From: a virus
Virus record (IMG/VR): IMGVR_UViG_3300030104_006033
Coordinates: 1 to 23,045 of that record
Length of the DNA stretch: 23,045 nucleotides
Reading direction: 5' to 3' (one strand)
The notes under the pieces are model-generated. The model ran no database searches and was not told the origin of the DNA. It worked only from the letters and a program-made list of their open reading frames with translations. The first letter of the stretch is position 1. The number at the start of each line of letters is the position of its first letter. Shown here piece by piece: positions 5,331 to 22,400 of this stretch. Position numbers and translations under genes: made by a program.

Positions 5331-6044
5331 ATGAAACAAATACAAATCACTAAAAAAATACTTGAGGAGTTTTTACCAATATCTTCATGGAGAAACTTTG
5401 AAGTATTACCAGAAATAGTTATAGAGTTTATCAAATACCACAACATTACACCAATTGAACATAATTGGTATCAAAGTGGTGGTGGTTGTTGTCATTATTT
5501 TCTCAGAGATAGTGATAAACATATTTGGAGTTTCCATTGTGCAGATGAAATAATAGAGTATTCATATAATAAATGGGATTCAATTGATGACTATTTAGAA
5601 ACAGATGATGAACAACTAGAAGATAAATTGTATGGTTTTGGGTGGGAATGTGAAAGTCCAAATTATAATGAGAGACATAAACACAACCAATGGAAATTTG
5701 ATTTTTATGTTCGACCACAATTAGAAGACAACCAATGTCACATCCATGAACAAAATGATGATGATTGTATTTTGTGTAATACAGATGAATTTAAAGTAGG
5801 TGATTTAGTCAAAATAAAAAAAGAACATGGTGTAGTGGGTAGTAATAATACACTTTTTTTCGAGTCTGTTTGGACAATAAAAAGAATAGATAAAGATTCT
5901 GTTGATTTACATGAAAAACGTAGAGGTGGTGTTAAAGAGGAATGTTTTTTTCTAAATGAACGTCCTTATTATGTAGAAAATGAAGTGGTAATAAATAACA
6001 AATTGGAAGGGTTTCCAATATCATTAATTGAACATTGTATTTAA
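5331..6044 (+). CDS. Unknown protein with possible zinc site and SH3/KOW-like C-terminal domain
   Basis: 237 residues, acidic, no membrane segment. Residues about 45-120 are rich in Trp, His, Tyr and Asp (YQSGGGCCHYFLRD; GFGWECESP). Near residues 138-152 there is CHIHEQNDDDCILC, a plausible metal-binding C-x-H...C-x-x-C cluster. After it, DEFKVGDLVKIKKEHGVVG and VWTIKRIDKDSVDL look like the barrel of an SH3 or KOW domain. No family is recognised. First gene of the plus operon, with the extended ribosome motif directly upstream. Its 3' end is close to the next gene's ribosome site, so they should be co-transcribed. Confidence 0.8.
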   Translation: MKQIQITKKILEEFLPISSWRNFEVLPEIVIEFIKYHNITPIEHNWYQSGGGCCHYFLRDSDKHIWSFHCADEIIEYSYNKWDSIDDYLETDDEQLEDKLYGFGWECESPNYNERHKHNQWKFDFYVRPQLEDNQCHIHEQNDDDCILCNTDEFKVGDLVKIKKEHGVVGSNNTLFFESVWTIKRIDKDSVDLHEKRRGGVKEECFFLNERPYYVENEVVINNKLEGFPISLIEHCI

Positions 6045-6073
6045 TAACAAACAAAAAAAGGAACGGCAATAAA

Positions 6074-6796
6074 ATGAGTACACGAACAAACATAGTAGTA
6101 AAAGGTAATGACTCTGTTATCTATAAACATAGTGATGGATATCCAGAATATATTCTTCCGATAATAGTCCCATTCTTAAGGGTTTTTAAGAATAATCGAG
6201 GTAATGACCCAGAATATTGCATTGCATCGATTATAAGGGAATTTACAAGGCAAGAAATAATAACTAGTTCAGATTGGTACAAACAGATTGACAGAAATAG
6301 TGACGAGATACCAAGAGAATTTTGTTTTGGTTATGGAGTATCTGAACATATTCATGGAGACATCGATTATTTATATATAGTTGATTTAAAAAATGATGGT
6401 TGGGTAGATGTTTATGAAGTTGGTGCAAATGATAGGTTAATCCATGTTAAAGGAATCTGTTTAAAAAAGAAACTTGATGGTTCATCATTAGATATTGGGA
6501 GTTACAATGACTTAACACCAGAACAGAAAGAACATCACAAATCAAGGTTGGTTGGATCGATTCATAGTGGTTTAACGAGGGATTTCTTATATAATAATGG
6601 TTTGATAGAATACAGAAAAAATATAAGTGAATGGAGTACGGATGCAATTAATGAAGAAAGATGGATTATTCAAAATGAAATCATACCAGATATATTGGAT
6701 ACTTTAGAATTCAAAAAAGAACACTTTGATAAATTGAAATTATGTAATGATAAAATTAACATATGTTTTGAAATTCGAGATGAGAGGGGTGAATAA
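6074..6796 (+). CDS. Unknown phage protein with N-terminal STRTNIxVK...HSDGYPEY motif
   Basis: 240 residues. An upstream in-frame ATG at 6035 is open, but the start at 6074 is chosen because the extended ribosome motif lies just before it and the protein then begins MSTRTNIVVKGNDSVIYKHS. The pattern of STR-N-I, then Y-H-x-DGYPEY, is one I associate with uncharacterised phage and bacterial proteins; function unknown. The middle contains GYGVSEHIHGDIDYLYIVDL and DGWVDVYEVG, which look like beta strands. The stop codon is directly followed by the hammerhead ribozyme, with no spare base between. Confidence 0.8.
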   Translation: MSTRTNIVVKGNDSVIYKHSDGYPEYILPIIVPFLRVFKNNRGNDPEYCIASIIREFTRQEIITSSDWYKQIDRNSDEIPREFCFGYGVSEHIHGDIDYLYIVDLKNDGWVDVYEVGANDRLIHVKGICLKKKLDGSSLDIGSYNDLTPEQKEHHKSRLVGSIHSGLTRDFLYNNGLIEYRKNISEWSTDAINEERWIIQNEIIPDILDTLEFKKEHFDKLKLCNDKINICFEIRDERGE

Positions 6797-6853
6797 GGTT
6801 ATCTGATGAGTCCTATCTGGACGAAATAGGGGATTTATTCCCCTATCATAACC
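6797..6853 (+). ncRNA. Type I hammerhead self-cleaving ribozyme
   Basis: All parts are present in order. Stem I is GGTTAT (6797-6802) pairing with ATAACC (6848-6853), 6 of 6. The core CTGATGA is at 6803-6809. Stem II is GTCC/GGAC (6810-6813, 6819-6822) with loop TATCT. The core GAA is at 6823-6825. Stem III is ATAGGGGA/TCCCCTAT (6826-6833, 6839-6846), 8 of 8, with loop TTTAT. The unpaired C at 6847 is the cleavage-site base, so cutting should fall between 6847 and 6848. Both RNA ends leave through stem I, making it type I. It lies exactly between a stop codon and the next gene's ribosome site, so the operon mRNA should be split here. Confidence 0.93.
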
Positions 6854-6872
6854 AAATAAAAGGATGGCAAAA

Positions 6873-7505
6873 ATGAAAAACAGAGTAACATTAAAACCAA
6901 TTGAACTAAATGCAATTCAAATTGCATTACAAGGTGGAAAGGATTATTACGACTATCTAAAAGGGCAATTTCAAGATGATAGTTATGATTATTTAAACCA
7001 ATGTTCAATTAAACAATTAGAAGACATTAAAGAGTGTTTAGGGTATGATTTAGATGGGTTGCATGATGAACTTAAATCTATGGAAGAAAACATGGTTAAA
7101 GGTTGGAAAGAAGAAGAGTACGAAGATTTTAGAGATAAATACGAATGGACAAAGTCTGCAAAAAAGAAAGTAGAAGAAACAATAAAAAACAAAGGGATAA
7201 ATAAATCTTCAATTGAACATACTATACAATGTTTAAGAGATATTATAAATGGGGATGCATCTGTTCATAACATGGGTGGATTATCTGATTTTTTACTTGA
7301 AAATGCATTTAAAATTGATGATGGTAACAAAAACTACCTTTCAAGAAAAACAATGATTATTGAATCTTGTTTATGGTTAATAGATGTATTGGAAGACATT
7401 ATTCACAGAGAAGATTACTCATTAGAGAAATATAATCTTGATTATAGGGTTGTTGATTGGTTAATAGGTTGTACAAAAGTGCAAGAGGAGTTATCTAATG
7501 AATAA
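6873..7505 (+). CDS. Unknown helical, acidic protein, 210 aa
   Basis: Start placed at 6873 (MKNRVTLKPIELNAIQIALQ) because AAAAGGATGGCAAAA precedes it; the in-frame ATG at 6864 is part of that ribosome site. The protein is mostly helical and acidic, with coiled-coil-like stretches (KSMEENMVKGWKEEEYEDF near 70-90; KSAKKKVEETIKNK near 98-110) and no cysteine pairs or membrane segments. No family recognised. If the ribozyme cuts, the mRNA for this gene starts 25 bases upstream with a 5'-hydroxyl. Its 3' end overlaps the next gene by eight bases, so the two should be coupled. Confidence 0.8.
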   Translation: MKNRVTLKPIELNAIQIALQGGKDYYDYLKGQFQDDSYDYLNQCSIKQLEDIKECLGYDLDGLHDELKSMEENMVKGWKEEEYEDFRDKYEWTKSAKKKVEETIKNKGINKSSIEHTIQCLRDIINGDASVHNMGGLSDFLLENAFKIDDGNKNYLSRKTMIIESCLWLIDVLEDIIHREDYSLEKYNLDYRVVDWLIGCTKVQEELSNE

Positions 7506-7932
7506 ACACATTGAATTAACAAAAAAAGACAAGTATTTATTTACTTGTGATGGTGGGAAAAATCAATTTTATGGTTATATCATTAATGATGATAAATGGA
7601 ATGGTTTTGAAGTGCCATATTTCACTAGAGATGAGTTAATTAAGATTGAAAAAAGTTGGCATGATGATAACAATGCACCAAAAATAAAATTTGGCAAAAG
7701 GGTTATTAAATTTGCATATGAGAAATATAAAATTGCATCACATATGGAGTTTAACACAATCAAGGGAATTGATACTAAAAAATCAAATGGGGTGTATTTT
7801 GTGTATGAGAAAATATATCCACTAAATGGTTTGTGTTGGAAGAAGATTGAAATGGATGAAGTAGTAATTAGACTTAAAAGTAAGTCTGGTAGGGGTAAGA
7901 TAAGTCATTTTGGTTTAGAGGCAAATAAATGA
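7498..7932 (+). CDS. Unknown basic protein, 144 aa
   Basis: Begins MNKHIELTKKDKYLFTCDGG, lysine-rich, alternating beta-like segments (QFYGYIINDDKWNGFEVPYF; VYFVYEKIYPLNGLCWKKIE). No membrane segment or recognised motif. The start overlaps the upstream stop region by eight bases and the stop overlaps the integrase ATG as ATGA, so it is translated together with both. It lacks its own extended ribosome motif, in contrast with the genes that do not overlap. Function unknown; a small DNA-binding partner of the integrase is possible but not shown. Confidence 0.75.
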   Translation: MNKHIELTKKDKYLFTCDGGKNQFYGYIINDDKWNGFEVPYFTRDELIKIEKSWHDDNNAPKIKFGKRVIKFAYEKYKIASHMEFNTIKGIDTKKSNGVYFVYEKIYPLNGLCWKKIEMDEVVIRLKSKSGRGKISHFGLEANK

Positions 7933-9050
7933 AATATATCCATCTTAAGAATCTTGAAAATGTGGTATTGGTTGGTACAAATGGCAAAAAGTACATCAAG
8001 TACAATTTTAGATATATGCACCAAGGTAGGACTAAACGTATTTCACTTGGAACCGAACTAAATAGTACCACTTCGGACGTAAAAATCCGATATAAGATTG
8101 CACAAACGAAGGCACTAAATCTTCAATTAGGGTTTGAGGTCTCTGTGCCGGGATCCAGGGACCAATCTCCCCGGAAGGAACCAGTCCTTCTGGCAAAAGT
8201 CTTTGATAAATGGGTAAACATAAATAAAAATAGTTCAAAATCATTTTTGAACCATATTCATAACATGAAACATTTTGTTTACTTTTTTGGAAAGGAATCT
8301 GATTGGAAAAATAACAGAGTCACCAAAGGTTGTAAGATTGATTTGGCACAATTAAATGCCAATGATATTGATGAATTCTATAATGACCAGATTGAAAAAG
8401 GATTTACCAAAAGTACAATTCAAAAAAGGCACAATTATTTAAATCCTTTTTATGCATGGTTAAAGAGAAACAAATATCTGGAAGAGAACTACTATCTGGA
8501 AAAAAGTAAATTAAAAGTCAAAAATGATGAAAAGATAGAATTTCAGGCATTAGATAGAAAAGACATAATGAAGATAATCAACCAAGTAAAAAACCATAAT
8601 TATAAGGTATTATGGACTATTATGGCATACTCTGGACTATCTCCAATAGATGCATCAACATTGGACAAAAGAAAAGACATTGTTCATAATGGTAAATTCA
8701 CTTGCATAGTAACAAAACGAACAAAAACAAAAGTGATTGCACAGATACCCATATTAGGTGACTTAGATAAACTAGGTGATTTGATTTTTAATCTGGACAT
8801 GACAAAAAAACAACGAGACAATGCCAACAAGGAATTTAAAAGATTGGCAAAGGCAAATGGGATTATTGCAAAGGAAGGATATAAAATATCCCAATATTGC
8901 CTAAGGCATAGTTTAACTACGTTTTTACGACCATATCTAACAGACAATGAAATTCAGTTATTTATGGGTCATACAAACACAAACCAACAAACCACATACA
9001 CCCAAGTATCTCAAGAAATGTACGAGAAATTGGAAAGTGTACTAAAATAA
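7929..9050 (+). CDS. int: Tyrosine recombinase, phage integrase
   Basis: 373 residues. An N-terminal beta-rich arm-binding region (about 1-60) is followed by a SAM-like core-binding domain (about 87-195) and the catalytic domain (205-373). Visible catalytic parts are: beta-hairpin Lys in IVTKRTK (Lys263), YCLRHS (Arg326, His327), MGHTN (His348) and the nucleophile in TTYTQVS (Tyr357). The usual first Arg (TGLRxxE) is replaced: the site reads YSGLSPIDASTL with Ser238, and the HxxR His is Tyr323. A Ser at the Arg I place is known in Bacteroides-type integrases such as IntDOT, so it need not be dead. It should join phage and host att sites. Confidence 0.92.
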   Translation: MKYIHLKNLENVVLVGTNGKKYIKYNFRYMHQGRTKRISLGTELNSTTSDVKIRYKIAQTKALNLQLGFEVSVPGSRDQSPRKEPVLLAKVFDKWVNINKNSSKSFLNHIHNMKHFVYFFGKESDWKNNRVTKGCKIDLAQLNANDIDEFYNDQIEKGFTKSTIQKRHNYLNPFYAWLKRNKYLEENYYLEKSKLKVKNDEKIEFQALDRKDIMKIINQVKNHNYKVLWTIMAYSGLSPIDASTLDKRKDIVHNGKFTCIVTKRTKTKVIAQIPILGDLDKLGDLIFNLDMTKKQRDNANKEFKRLAKANGIIAKEGYKISQYCLRHSLTTFLRPYLTDNEIQLFMGHTNTNQQTTYTQVSQEMYEKLESVLK

Positions 9051-9065
9051 AGGACGGCATCAAAA

Positions 9066-9281
9066 ATGGTAGCAAATAGTAAAATAAAGGACGTAAAACT
9101 CGTTAGAATACAAACCGAAGGGATCGAGTTAAAATGGAATGTATTTTGTGTATATGCAAAATCAATAGGAACTACACCCAGAAAACTATTAGGAAAGATT
9201 CTAAAGGAATATTGGGTAAGGAACTTGACAGAGATTACTCATGCATGGCAAAATGCAATGGGAATTGATGAAGAGGAATAG
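9066..9281 (+). CDS. Small hypothetical protein after the integrase, 71 aa
   Basis: MVANSKIKDVKLVRIQTEGI..., with the extended ribosome motif directly upstream and a terminator 24 bases past its stop, so it ends the plus operon. The segment VFCVYAKSIGTTPRKLLGKILKEYWVRNL could be a helix-turn-helix or ribbon-helix-helix-type DNA-binding fold; a directionality or regulatory role would fit next to an integrase but is inference. Confidence 0.75.
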   Translation: MVANSKIKDVKLVRIQTEGIELKWNVFCVYAKSIGTTPRKLLGKILKEYWVRNLTEITHAWQNAMGIDEEE

Positions 9282-9304: not shown

Positions 9305-9329
9305 GGGTGAGAAATCACCCTTTTTTTTT
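9305..9329 (+). terminator. Bidirectional rho-independent terminator
   Basis: GGGTGA (9305-9310), loop GAAA, TCACCC (9315-9320), then nine T. The left side carries a run of A, so the minus strand also reads a hairpin followed by T. It ends the plus operon (last stop 9281) and the leftward early operon (last stop 9328-9330). Confidence 0.92.
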
Positions 9330-17107: not shown

Positions 17108-17122
17108 CTCGTCGTGAAGGTG

Positions 17123-17217
17123 CGGAGAGGGAGGGATTCGAACCCTCGAAGAGGCTATAAACCCCTTACTCACTTAGCAGGCGAGTACTTCCTCCTCGGA
17201 AAAGCGAGCACCCCTCT
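17123..17217 (-). tRNA. tRNA-Ser (anticodon GCU)-like, abnormal 5' half
   Basis: Read on the minus strand. T arm is GAGGG-TTCGAAT-CCCTC. The acceptor 3' strand CCTCTCC with discriminator G ends at 17123, and CCA is not encoded. A long variable arm (AAGGGG/CCTCTT) is typical of Ser. The anticodon stem CTCGC/GTGAG has loop CTGCTAA, anticodon GCT at 17176-17178. The 5' acceptor AGAGGGG pairs at 6 of 7 (first pair A-C, one G-U). The D arm has about eight extra bases (CTCGCTTT) before the usual CCGAG, so it does not fold normally. It may be a degenerate tRNA, or an attachment site carrying the 3' part of a host gene. Confidence 0.72.
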
Positions 17218-19404: not shown

Positions 19405-22400
19405 TTATTCAAATACGAAGGTTACTAAAAATTGGTCAACTGCTGTACTATTTGGATTAATACTAAAGCGTAATGCATTCCCTTTTGCTATCGCTAATCC
19501 ACAAGATATGTTTGCAGATGCACCAGTTGTAAAACTTTTCGTATAAGTAGTAGTTGTAGTAGATGTCCCATTAACAAATACACTATATGTACTAGCAACC
19601 TCTACTTTAAATTGTGCATCAGTTACAGCAGTTTCAGATGTTACATACATTGCTCTTAACGTAGTTGCAAATGGAGCGACCCAAGTCATTTGGGTTTTTA
19701 AATCACTACCTGTACTTGGACTAGCTGTTGTAGTTCCAGATTCTGTAAATGGCATATTTAACTCTGATGAGGTTCCTTTCCAATCTGCCGATGCATTTAT
19801 CATAAATGGATAAGCACCGTCAACTGACAAAGCACCTTCCACCTTTAAATCTTCTTTTATTGTAATATCACAATTTTGGTCAATCACAAATGCTGTAGTA
19901 CCACCTGCATCTCCAAGTTTTAACTTATTAGAATCAGACCCATCATTGTATAATTGCCAAGCCATTGTATCTTCTGCATCCCATTGCAGTATAGCATCAT
20001 AATTATTGTCTGCATTTGATTGAATTTTTAATGTGGTATGGTCTGTTAGCCACCTGCCATTTAGTATAAAATCTGTTGCAATATGTTCAGCTATTCCATT
20101 GCCTTTAATGGTATGAAGAGTAGTTCCTTCCTGGTTGTCAACTAGAAAAGCATTGTAGTTATTGCTATTAGGGGCTCCTTTAATAAAAAATCCGTGTCCA
20201 GTTGTACTGCTGTTATGAACACCACCACCATATTGCCCTGCCAAAGACCCTTCAACATCTAAAATTCTTATAGGAGTTTTGCCTATCCCAATGTGACCAA
20301 TATGATTAATCGTTATTCTTTTTGCACAATCTCCACCATAAGCTTTTGTCCAAAATTGCATTTCTGAACCTTGGTCGCCACCACTTGAGCTATTACCATA
20401 ATTAACTAAAGATATTCTACCTGCACCTTCTCCACTACCACCCCAATAGTTTACACCACTAGTAAAACTATTTTGTTCATTTCTAAAAAGGATATGCCCA
20501 ATACCAGTACCATCTGTATAGGTTTTACCAACTAATTCTAAAACTCCTGCTATGTTTGTGCTACCTGTACCAACTTCTAAAAATGTATTGCTTGTAAATC
20601 CATAAGCAGTACCCAAAGGTGTTCGACCAATACCTAAATTTCCTCCATTTAAATAGTTGTCACCTTCAGCATCTAAATTAATTTTTACAGTACTATCGCT
20701 ATCTGTTATAGCCATATGCCCATCGCCACCAACTGTGTCAAAATCAACACTTGCTGTTCCCATAGTGAATCTGACCTCGCCTGTAACGTGAAGGGTTTTT
20801 GATGGTGACTGATTACCTATTCCAAGCTTCCCTCCATCGAGAAAAGAATCACCTCCTGCGTGGATTCTCACCTTATGTGCAGGGGTGCTATCATTCATAT
20901 CTATAACTGCATTACTCCCACTTGTCGATAAAACTGTCTTACCTGCATCTGAATTAGCTGTAATGTTGTCATCAGTTACTATATCACCTGTGAAAGTAGC
21001 TTTTTGATTCGCATCCAAAGTAAGGGCAGTAGTTGATGCTGTTGTAAATATAAGAGAATTAGGACCAGTACCATCGTTTACATGATGATATTTTATTGAA
21101 CCTACTGAAGTCGCACCTTCTCTTGAAAAAACTAGAGTACCTGACTTGTTTGCAGGAGTCCATATTGATAATCCAGAATCCCCACTTCCTTCAATAATCA
21201 ATTCATCAGCACTAGTATTGGCTGAAGATGTAATACCTGAATCGCCTGTAAAAATGTGACATTTTGCAAGGGGGACAGACTCTCCAATTCCCACATTTTG
21301 ACTAGCATTAATTGTTAAGGCATCTGAACCATTACCACTTCGTAAAGTTAATATACCATCTGAATGTTGAGTACCAAGCTTCATAGTCTTGGTGTTGTAC
21401 TCGTAAAAAACATTTGCACCATTCAAATCACTTGTAGAACCAAATACAATAGTTGATGTATGACCTGACGATTCCCCTGCCAGTATAGATAATCCTGCAT
21501 CTGCATTATTTCTAATCACTAACTCATCGCCATCACTATCAGGAGTTCCACTAACTGTTCCATCGCCACCTACGATGTCTATTTTACCTGCTGGTGACGA
21601 ATTATTTATCCCAATCTGTCCACTAGCATTTATATACATTCTTGTATTATGAGTAGAGCCATCAGCAGTTGTTTGAAATGCTATTGTCCCCTCAGAAGAA
21701 GTACCACCTCTTGAAATCAGATTGGTAGTACCTTGATTCATATTTAATTGTGCATATTGGTCTAGGGCATTTTGAGAATCACCAGCCCTTGAAATCTTAA
21801 TGCCATCTCCAGCATTATTTGCTCCTATTATAAATAGATTTGCACTTGTAGCTGTACCTGATGACTCAACTCCAATCATCATTTTACCATTACGAAATGA
21901 GTAAATACCTGCATCAATGTAAAACTGCATTCCATTGGCATTGTTATAACTATTGAAGTATCCCCATCCATTGTCATCATAGCAACCAGTTAAAACATAA
22001 TTATCACCAGAGCCGTGTATCTTTAATCTTTTATTTACTCCCTCAGCCGTTAATGGAGTACCACCCTGTATTAAGGCTCTTCCTTCGTCATCTATAGTAA
22101 GACCTGTATATAGTTGATAAGCACTACCATTATGACCTTTTGTAATGAGACTTAAGTTTGTGGCATAAGCACCATCATCTCCTGCTGTGCATTTGACATA
22201 TGCAGTAGCACCATCGCTTCGTCTATCAAATGTTAGTGAAACATCATTCCCTTCTGCCCCAGTATCTTTGTGAATAATAATTCCAGTATTGACTCGTAAG
22301 CTAGTACTAGTATCGTTCCCTGCTGTTCCTACCTGAAGACCATTTGTATCTATTTTTGCTTTGTATACGCCCCCAACTTCCCATTCGCAATATTTATTTG

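Follow-up and report, generated by a model that had tools for sequence, protein, structure and literature searches.

A predicted type I hammerhead ribozyme between exchangeable genes of a phage integrase operon

Introduction

What might a hammerhead ribozyme do between two genes of a phage integrase operon? The function of such elements in prokaryotes, in phages and prophages alike, was described as unsettled in a 2017 review (PMC6155905), and it is posed anew by IMG/VR virus record IMGVR_UViG_3300030104_006033, which was analysed over its whole length of 23,045 nt (positions 1 to 23,045, hereafter the window). We consider it reasonably probable that the motif described below truly is a type I hammerhead, one that severs the operon mRNA between exchangeable genes and so acts as a joint. 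Every sampled integrase operon of the clade keeps a ribozyme despite gene turnover, and the question of function is thereby made testable.

Results

Structure of the ribozyme

Judged from its sequence, the segment at 6797-6853 on the plus strand is a complete type I hammerhead ribozyme, GGUUAU-CUGAUGA-GUCC-UAUCU-GGAC-GAA-AUAGGGGA-UUUAU-UCCCCUAU-C-AUAACC, with all of its elements on that strand. The 5' strand of stem I (GGUUAU, 6797-6802) pairs over 6 bp with the 3' strand (AUAACC, 6848-6853), with which the downstream mRNA would begin. It is followed by the core element CUGAUGA (6803-6809), a motif whose only variable position, among the 58 phage hammerheads of the model introduced below, is N7. 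Stem II (GUCC/GGAC, 6810-6822) contributes 4 bp, 6810-6813 with 6819-6822, around a loop, UAUCU, of the class pattern U-NNN-U, and leads to the core bases G12, A13 and A14 (GAA, 6823-6825). Stem III (6826-6846) has 8 bp, 6826-6833 with 6839-6846, and the loop UUUAU; it opens with the pair A15.1-U16.1 (A6826-U6846) and is expected to form the 3' end of the upstream mRNA. C17 lies at 6847, and cleavage is predicted at 6847/6848 from its position in the hammerhead consensus. The type I core is accordingly present throughout (CUGANGA ... GAA, A15.1-U16.1 and C6847 as H17), as are three stems of 6, 4 and 8 bp, open at stem I, and the preliminary description of an intact core with 18 bp and no mismatch is borne out by our reading of the sequence. 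The isolated 57-mer folds to exactly the hammerhead structure (-20.5 kcal/mol, z -2.9). Examination for a tertiary contact between stems I and II identified the class features A at -1, AA at +1/+2 and the loop II sequence UAUCU.

Statistical support

Perfect-core matches of at least 13 bp occurred in 5 of 1439 dinucleotide-shuffled windows, the highest having 16 bp, and none of the 1439 equalled the 18 bp of the natural sequence. Covariance models gave a divided answer to the earlier proposal of a hammerhead. An Rfam search of the window returned nothing at gathering level: RF00163 (Hammerhead_1) aligned at full length with 21.4 bits against a cut-off of 34 (E 1.4e-4 for the genome), a score taken for the window motif alone, and the RAGATH-1 hammerhead model (RF03152) gave 27.5 bits against 56.3. 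The identification stood, however, under R1, a covariance model built from 58 other phage hammerheads with the window excluded from training, which scored 57 bits (E 7.7e-13) as its sole match in the window; across 443 kb of bacterial and archaeal contigs it reached no more than 23 bits. No second hammerhead was detected in the 23-kb window by R1 or by the models R2 and R3 described below; one candidate with a relaxed core, one mismatch and 13 bp at 21222 was weak and was judged to be due to chance.

A pattern scan of IMG/VR with CTGATGAGTCC-N3-9-GGACGAAA yielded at least 119 phage stretches; these, together with three loci from a second pattern and with the window included, contained at least 131 distinct type I and at least 42 type III hammerheads by descriptor. 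Most type I phage hammerheads in the scan have exactly 6 stem I pairs, a preceding A, a following AA and often a U-NNN-U loop II, and the window hammerhead shows every one of these features. When cellular genomes were searched by pattern, 60 loci emerged; none is a hammerhead by descriptor, and R1 scored at most 23 bits there. Covariation within the 58-sequence alignment is partly circular because the sequences were selected for pairing, and support rests instead on the R1 score and on comparison with the syntenic hammerheads of contigs L190 and L192. In that comparison four pairs show compensatory change, one in stem I (A-U to U-A) and three in stem II (including the L192 change), with 100% of cells paired.

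Position in the operon

The operon comprises six same-strand genes (5331-9281, plus strand), with start/stop overlaps at 7498/7505 and 7929/7932, and ends at a terminator-like hairpin, GGGTGAGAAATCACCC, with a T run (9305-9329). Cargo gene 1 (5331-6044) has no Pfam or PHROG match; over 80 aa it is 41% identical to an ORF on the minus strand of another hammerhead-bearing phage contig (L072:4529-4921), a distant homologue located about 1.4 kb downstream of a hammerhead. Cargo genes 2 (6074-6796) and 3 (6873-7505) lie immediately upstream and downstream of the ribozyme, and neither belongs to a convincing family; a marginal PADLOC match of residues 99-194 of gene 3 to Cas6b (17.5 bits) is probably due to chance. 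Cargo gene 4 (7498-7932) matches phrog_9945. The tyrosine integrase (7929-9050) matches phrog_1 (E 2.4e-27), with PF00589 below cut-off, and is 37-48% identical to the integrases of relatives; the small gene after it (9066-9281) is conserved in relatives at 39-51%. The gene map thus agrees with the earlier placement of the hammerhead between two cistrons of unknown function within an integrase operon, at one of the five gene junctions. Elsewhere in the window, a complete tRNA-Ser (GCT) at 17122-17216 on the minus strand may represent cargo or an attachment site.

The spacing on the two sides of the ribozyme compares unequally with what had first been noted. Stem I begins at 6797, one base past the TAA at 6794-6796, as described; the ribosome site, which had been put some 10 bases past the ribozyme, in fact begins after a gap of 5 bases. 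This Shine-Dalgarno-like element of gene 3 (AAAGGATGGC, 6859-6868; ribosome-binding element AAAGGAUGGC) lies outside the ribozyme, and a similar motif occurs before 5331, 6074 and 9066. Because four operon genes carry a AAAGGANGGCA-like element ahead of AUG (the gene 2 version being AAAGGAACGGCA), gene 3 most likely starts at the ATG at 6873 rather than at 6864.

Hammerheads upstream of the integrase throughout a clade

Neither the two flanking genes nor the integrase, used as single sequences, retrieved relatives of this phage. A terminase search retrieved 34 contigs, nearly all at 82-94% identity, in which the order portal, terminase, homologue of gene 4822, variable genes and integrase is kept. 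Each of the 18 relatives' contigs for which the integrase sequence is available has, upstream of that gene and on its strand, from one to four hammerheads lying between cargo genes. With the near-duplicates L184/L187, L185/L186 and L199/L200 each taken once, these contigs represent 15 distinct operons. Some relatives, like the window, bear one hammerhead only. Hit-free relatives were not counted as negatives because the sequence upstream of their 4822 homologue amounts to some 1 kb at most, and no hammerhead was listed elsewhere in clade phages in whole-contig searches of 26 to 30 records. An alignment search with the integrase beyond the clade returned the same clade only, and the linkage of hammerhead and integrase consequently rests on one clade. 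Among hammerhead-bearing phage contigs in general, 2 of 20 had a Pfam integrase match, which likewise marks the linkage seen here as a property of this clade.

The abutment on a stop codon is equally regular. In all 30 cases from the clade and the window, the upstream ORF (40 or more open codons) has the end of its stop codon between -5 and +6 of stem I, as against 6% of random points, and the next start, where called, lies 14-24 bases past the clade hammerhead match. Unrelated phages show the same tendency. Their peaks lie at 0, +1, +6 and +10; at +6 the stop codon falls within stem I (UAA), and at +10 within the core CUGA. In a separate set of contigs (L259, L263, L265, L266, L267, L274, L276, L278 and L280), the hammerheads have a fixed stem I, CCATA/TATGG, and again abut a stop codon; these contigs have no recognisable relative of the clade integrase.

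The clade ribozymes fall into three structural flavours. Flavour A, the canonical form, is found in the window, in L190 (four copies) and in L192. In flavour B (L189, L193, L194, L196, L197, L199, L200, L202, L203, L210, L214 and L215) an additional U separates A9 from stem II, which has 8 bp, and stem III is short; insertions of a single base next to CUGANGA already fall within the known range (PMC10085705). Flavour C is marked by a stem II with a one-base bulge; it occurs in L184-L187 and L202, with CUGAUGA-core versions in L206, L207 and L216, while L213 also matches the flavour C model. In L184-L187 and one L202 copy the core reads CCGAUGA (U4C), a variant that is syntenic and conserved across several phages and that the text of section 8 of Perreault et al. 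(PMC3088659) does not name among its core variants. Flavours B and C share a pseudoknot between loop II and the 3' flank, with covarying changes on both sides. Weak R1 matches within the clade served to build models R2 and R3, which are supported by the scores of matches not used in building them (L189, 87.6; L197, 86.8; L202, 82.6; L213, 72.3; and L194, 65.6 bits).

Turnover of the flanking genes

The piece conserved in this clade is the ribozyme, and not the genes beside it: those separated by clade ribozymes are mostly unrelated, with similarity kept only in the ribozyme and leader. Cargo genes of the window have no homologue in the operons of relatives at E 1e-4. Ribozymes of the same flavour average 0.80-0.84 identity, compared with 0.45-0.57 in the 100 bases on each side and 43% for random pairs. 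The strongest DNA match of the window cargo region among its relatives is that of the ribozyme to the fourth L190 copy (E 2.8e-8), followed by the first L190 hammerhead and a 31-base leader match with L216 (each E 1.8e-4). Judged by terminase, the closest phages are L214 (94%) and L189 (92%), yet their ribozymes are of flavour B and their integrases only 42-43% identical to that of the window; their closeness by terminase, set against this divergence, argues that the whole module was replaced.

Discussion

Given the predicted cleavage, splitting of the operon mRNA is the best reading of this arrangement, and one that is strengthened by the clade comparison. The hammerhead would cleave the integrase-operon transcript between C6847 and A6848, leaving an upstream message (genes 1-2) closed off by the stem III hairpin and bearing a terminal 2',3'-cyclic phosphate, and a downstream message (genes 3-4, the integrase and the small gene) that starts with a 25-nt 5'-hydroxyl leader carrying the ribosome site. 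Such splitting might conceivably, as was first suggested, influence gene ratios during lysogeny. Throughout the clade, the ribozymes may represent a standard joint placed where a cargo gene ends, by which exchangeable genes upstream of the integrase would be uncoupled at the mRNA level and each interchangeable gene would receive a standard 5' leader. We infer both that cleavage occurs in cells and that this uncoupling is the selected trait. Gene-by-gene separation is not the rule, as evidenced by the single occupied junction among five in the window and by the single ribozyme in some relatives. ViennaRNA folding with natural flanks, which leaves tertiary contacts and co-transcriptional folding out of account, assigns stem I a probability of almost zero and prefers other pairings in some frames; slow or conditional cleavage of the window RNA is possible on these models. 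One such pairing joins the end of gene 2, AGGGGUGAAUAA (about 6785-6797), to stem III in its 3' half (about 6835-6845), and a ribosome finishing gene 2 might therefore influence folding of the ribozyme.

Persistence of the ribozyme amid gene turnover might also arise if the ribozyme-plus-leader DNA were kept mainly as boundary homology for recombinational swapping of cargo, with cleavage a secondary matter; boundary sequences in lambdoid phages have been proposed to act as recombination homology. It is consistent with such a role that hammerheads of different operons are 67-100% identical where both flanking genes are unrelated (69 flavour B pairs), that L197 and L203 share 78 bases at 96%, limited to the ribozyme and its edges, and that the ribozyme supplies the strongest match of the window cargo region to its relatives. 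However, the stems covary instead of staying identical, the catalytic bases and the loop II to 3'-flank pseudoknot are kept where homology alone would need neither, and three poorly aligning flavours do the same job, all of which makes homology an unlikely primary explanation. A dual joint, composed of hammerhead, stop codon and leader, is a possibility to which we give more weight, albeit tentatively: it would act as an RNA insulator and as DNA homology for cargo exchange, with a shared stem I keeping joints compatible. That sharing could alternatively point to ligation after cleavage, giving circular mRNAs or messages joined in trans with the aid of a stem I common to the hammerheads of one phage. 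Stem I differences average 1.1 of 6 within a contig against 3.7 between contigs, and ordered pairs that are fully complementary in trans make up 48% within and 5% between contigs, a result beyond all 2000 label shuffles. Sharing of stem I without sharing of stem II is seen in the multi-hammerhead contigs L098, L099, L108, L111, L007, L088 and others, stem II being partly fixed in this comparison by the search pattern. Yet the sharing could stem from recent common origin or from stop-codon constraints, and Perreault et al., in the portion of PMC3088659 considered here, sought spliced or circular products and found none. Release of a circle would be feasible in multi-ribozyme phages with a common stem I, and is impossible from the window because its hammerhead is single; we hold ligation to be improbable.

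The alternative folds in natural context, and a stem I of only 6 bp in which no internal loop was seen, would also be expected of a relic, or of a ribozyme too slow in cleavage to matter in cells. Against decay of this kind stand a core free of mutation, the compensatory changes in paired bases and the flanking-A and loop II features held in common with phage hammerheads, so that we accord it as small a likelihood as ligation. Least credible, and in our estimation very improbable indeed, is an intrinsic terminator or plain stabilising hairpin: the middle of stem III is G+C-rich, but it is followed by CAUAACCAAAUAAA with no T run, a terminator scan finds none there, and a hammerhead core would be needless for either role.

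Cleavage of the mRNA as a joint between cistrons has a counterpart in synthetic constructs. RiboJ is an engineered hammerhead insulator placed after a promoter, which fixes the 5' leader of the downstream gene; the window ribozyme resembles it in giving the downstream gene a fixed leader, as would follow from the predicted cut, and differs in being a natural joint between cistrons. Among established RNA families, Hammerhead_1 matches the motif at full length, and the window departs from it in its score below cut-off and in a 6-bp open stem I with flanking-A features. RAGATH-1 aligns in its core and three stems, also below cut-off, and the upstream hairpin of that family aligns in the window without clear pairing; the motif is consequently not assigned to RAGATH-1. 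As close natural variants, the U4C core and the extra U before stem II make the clade a convenient source of material for rate measurements.

The nearest precedent lies in the hundreds of bacterial hammerheads, many near integrase genes and grouped with prophages, that were reported by Perreault et al. in 2011 (PMC3088659). As described in the sections of that report drawn on here, tandem hammerheads flank single phage genes, tandem prophage hammerheads cleave in vitro and an Agrobacterium tumefaciens set underwent cleavage in E. coli. The view first taken of this locus, that a hammerhead so placed was undescribed, is contradicted by that work, in which both integrase-adjacent prophage hammerheads and hammerheads between genes appear. 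Integrase-adjacent and between-gene phage hammerheads are hence already known, and what is new is the clade-wide pattern; no description of that pattern or of the stop-codon abutment was found in the open-licence literature. The elements of 2011 share with the present ones their core, their phage or prophage setting, a nearby integrase and an intergenic position, and their flanking genes are said in that account not to be constant. The present comparison follows one operon through a clade in which the ribozyme persists while genes change and abuts a stop codon each time, a regularity that goes unmentioned in the same portions of the 2011 paper and that sets these phage hammerheads apart from those in the earlier survey.
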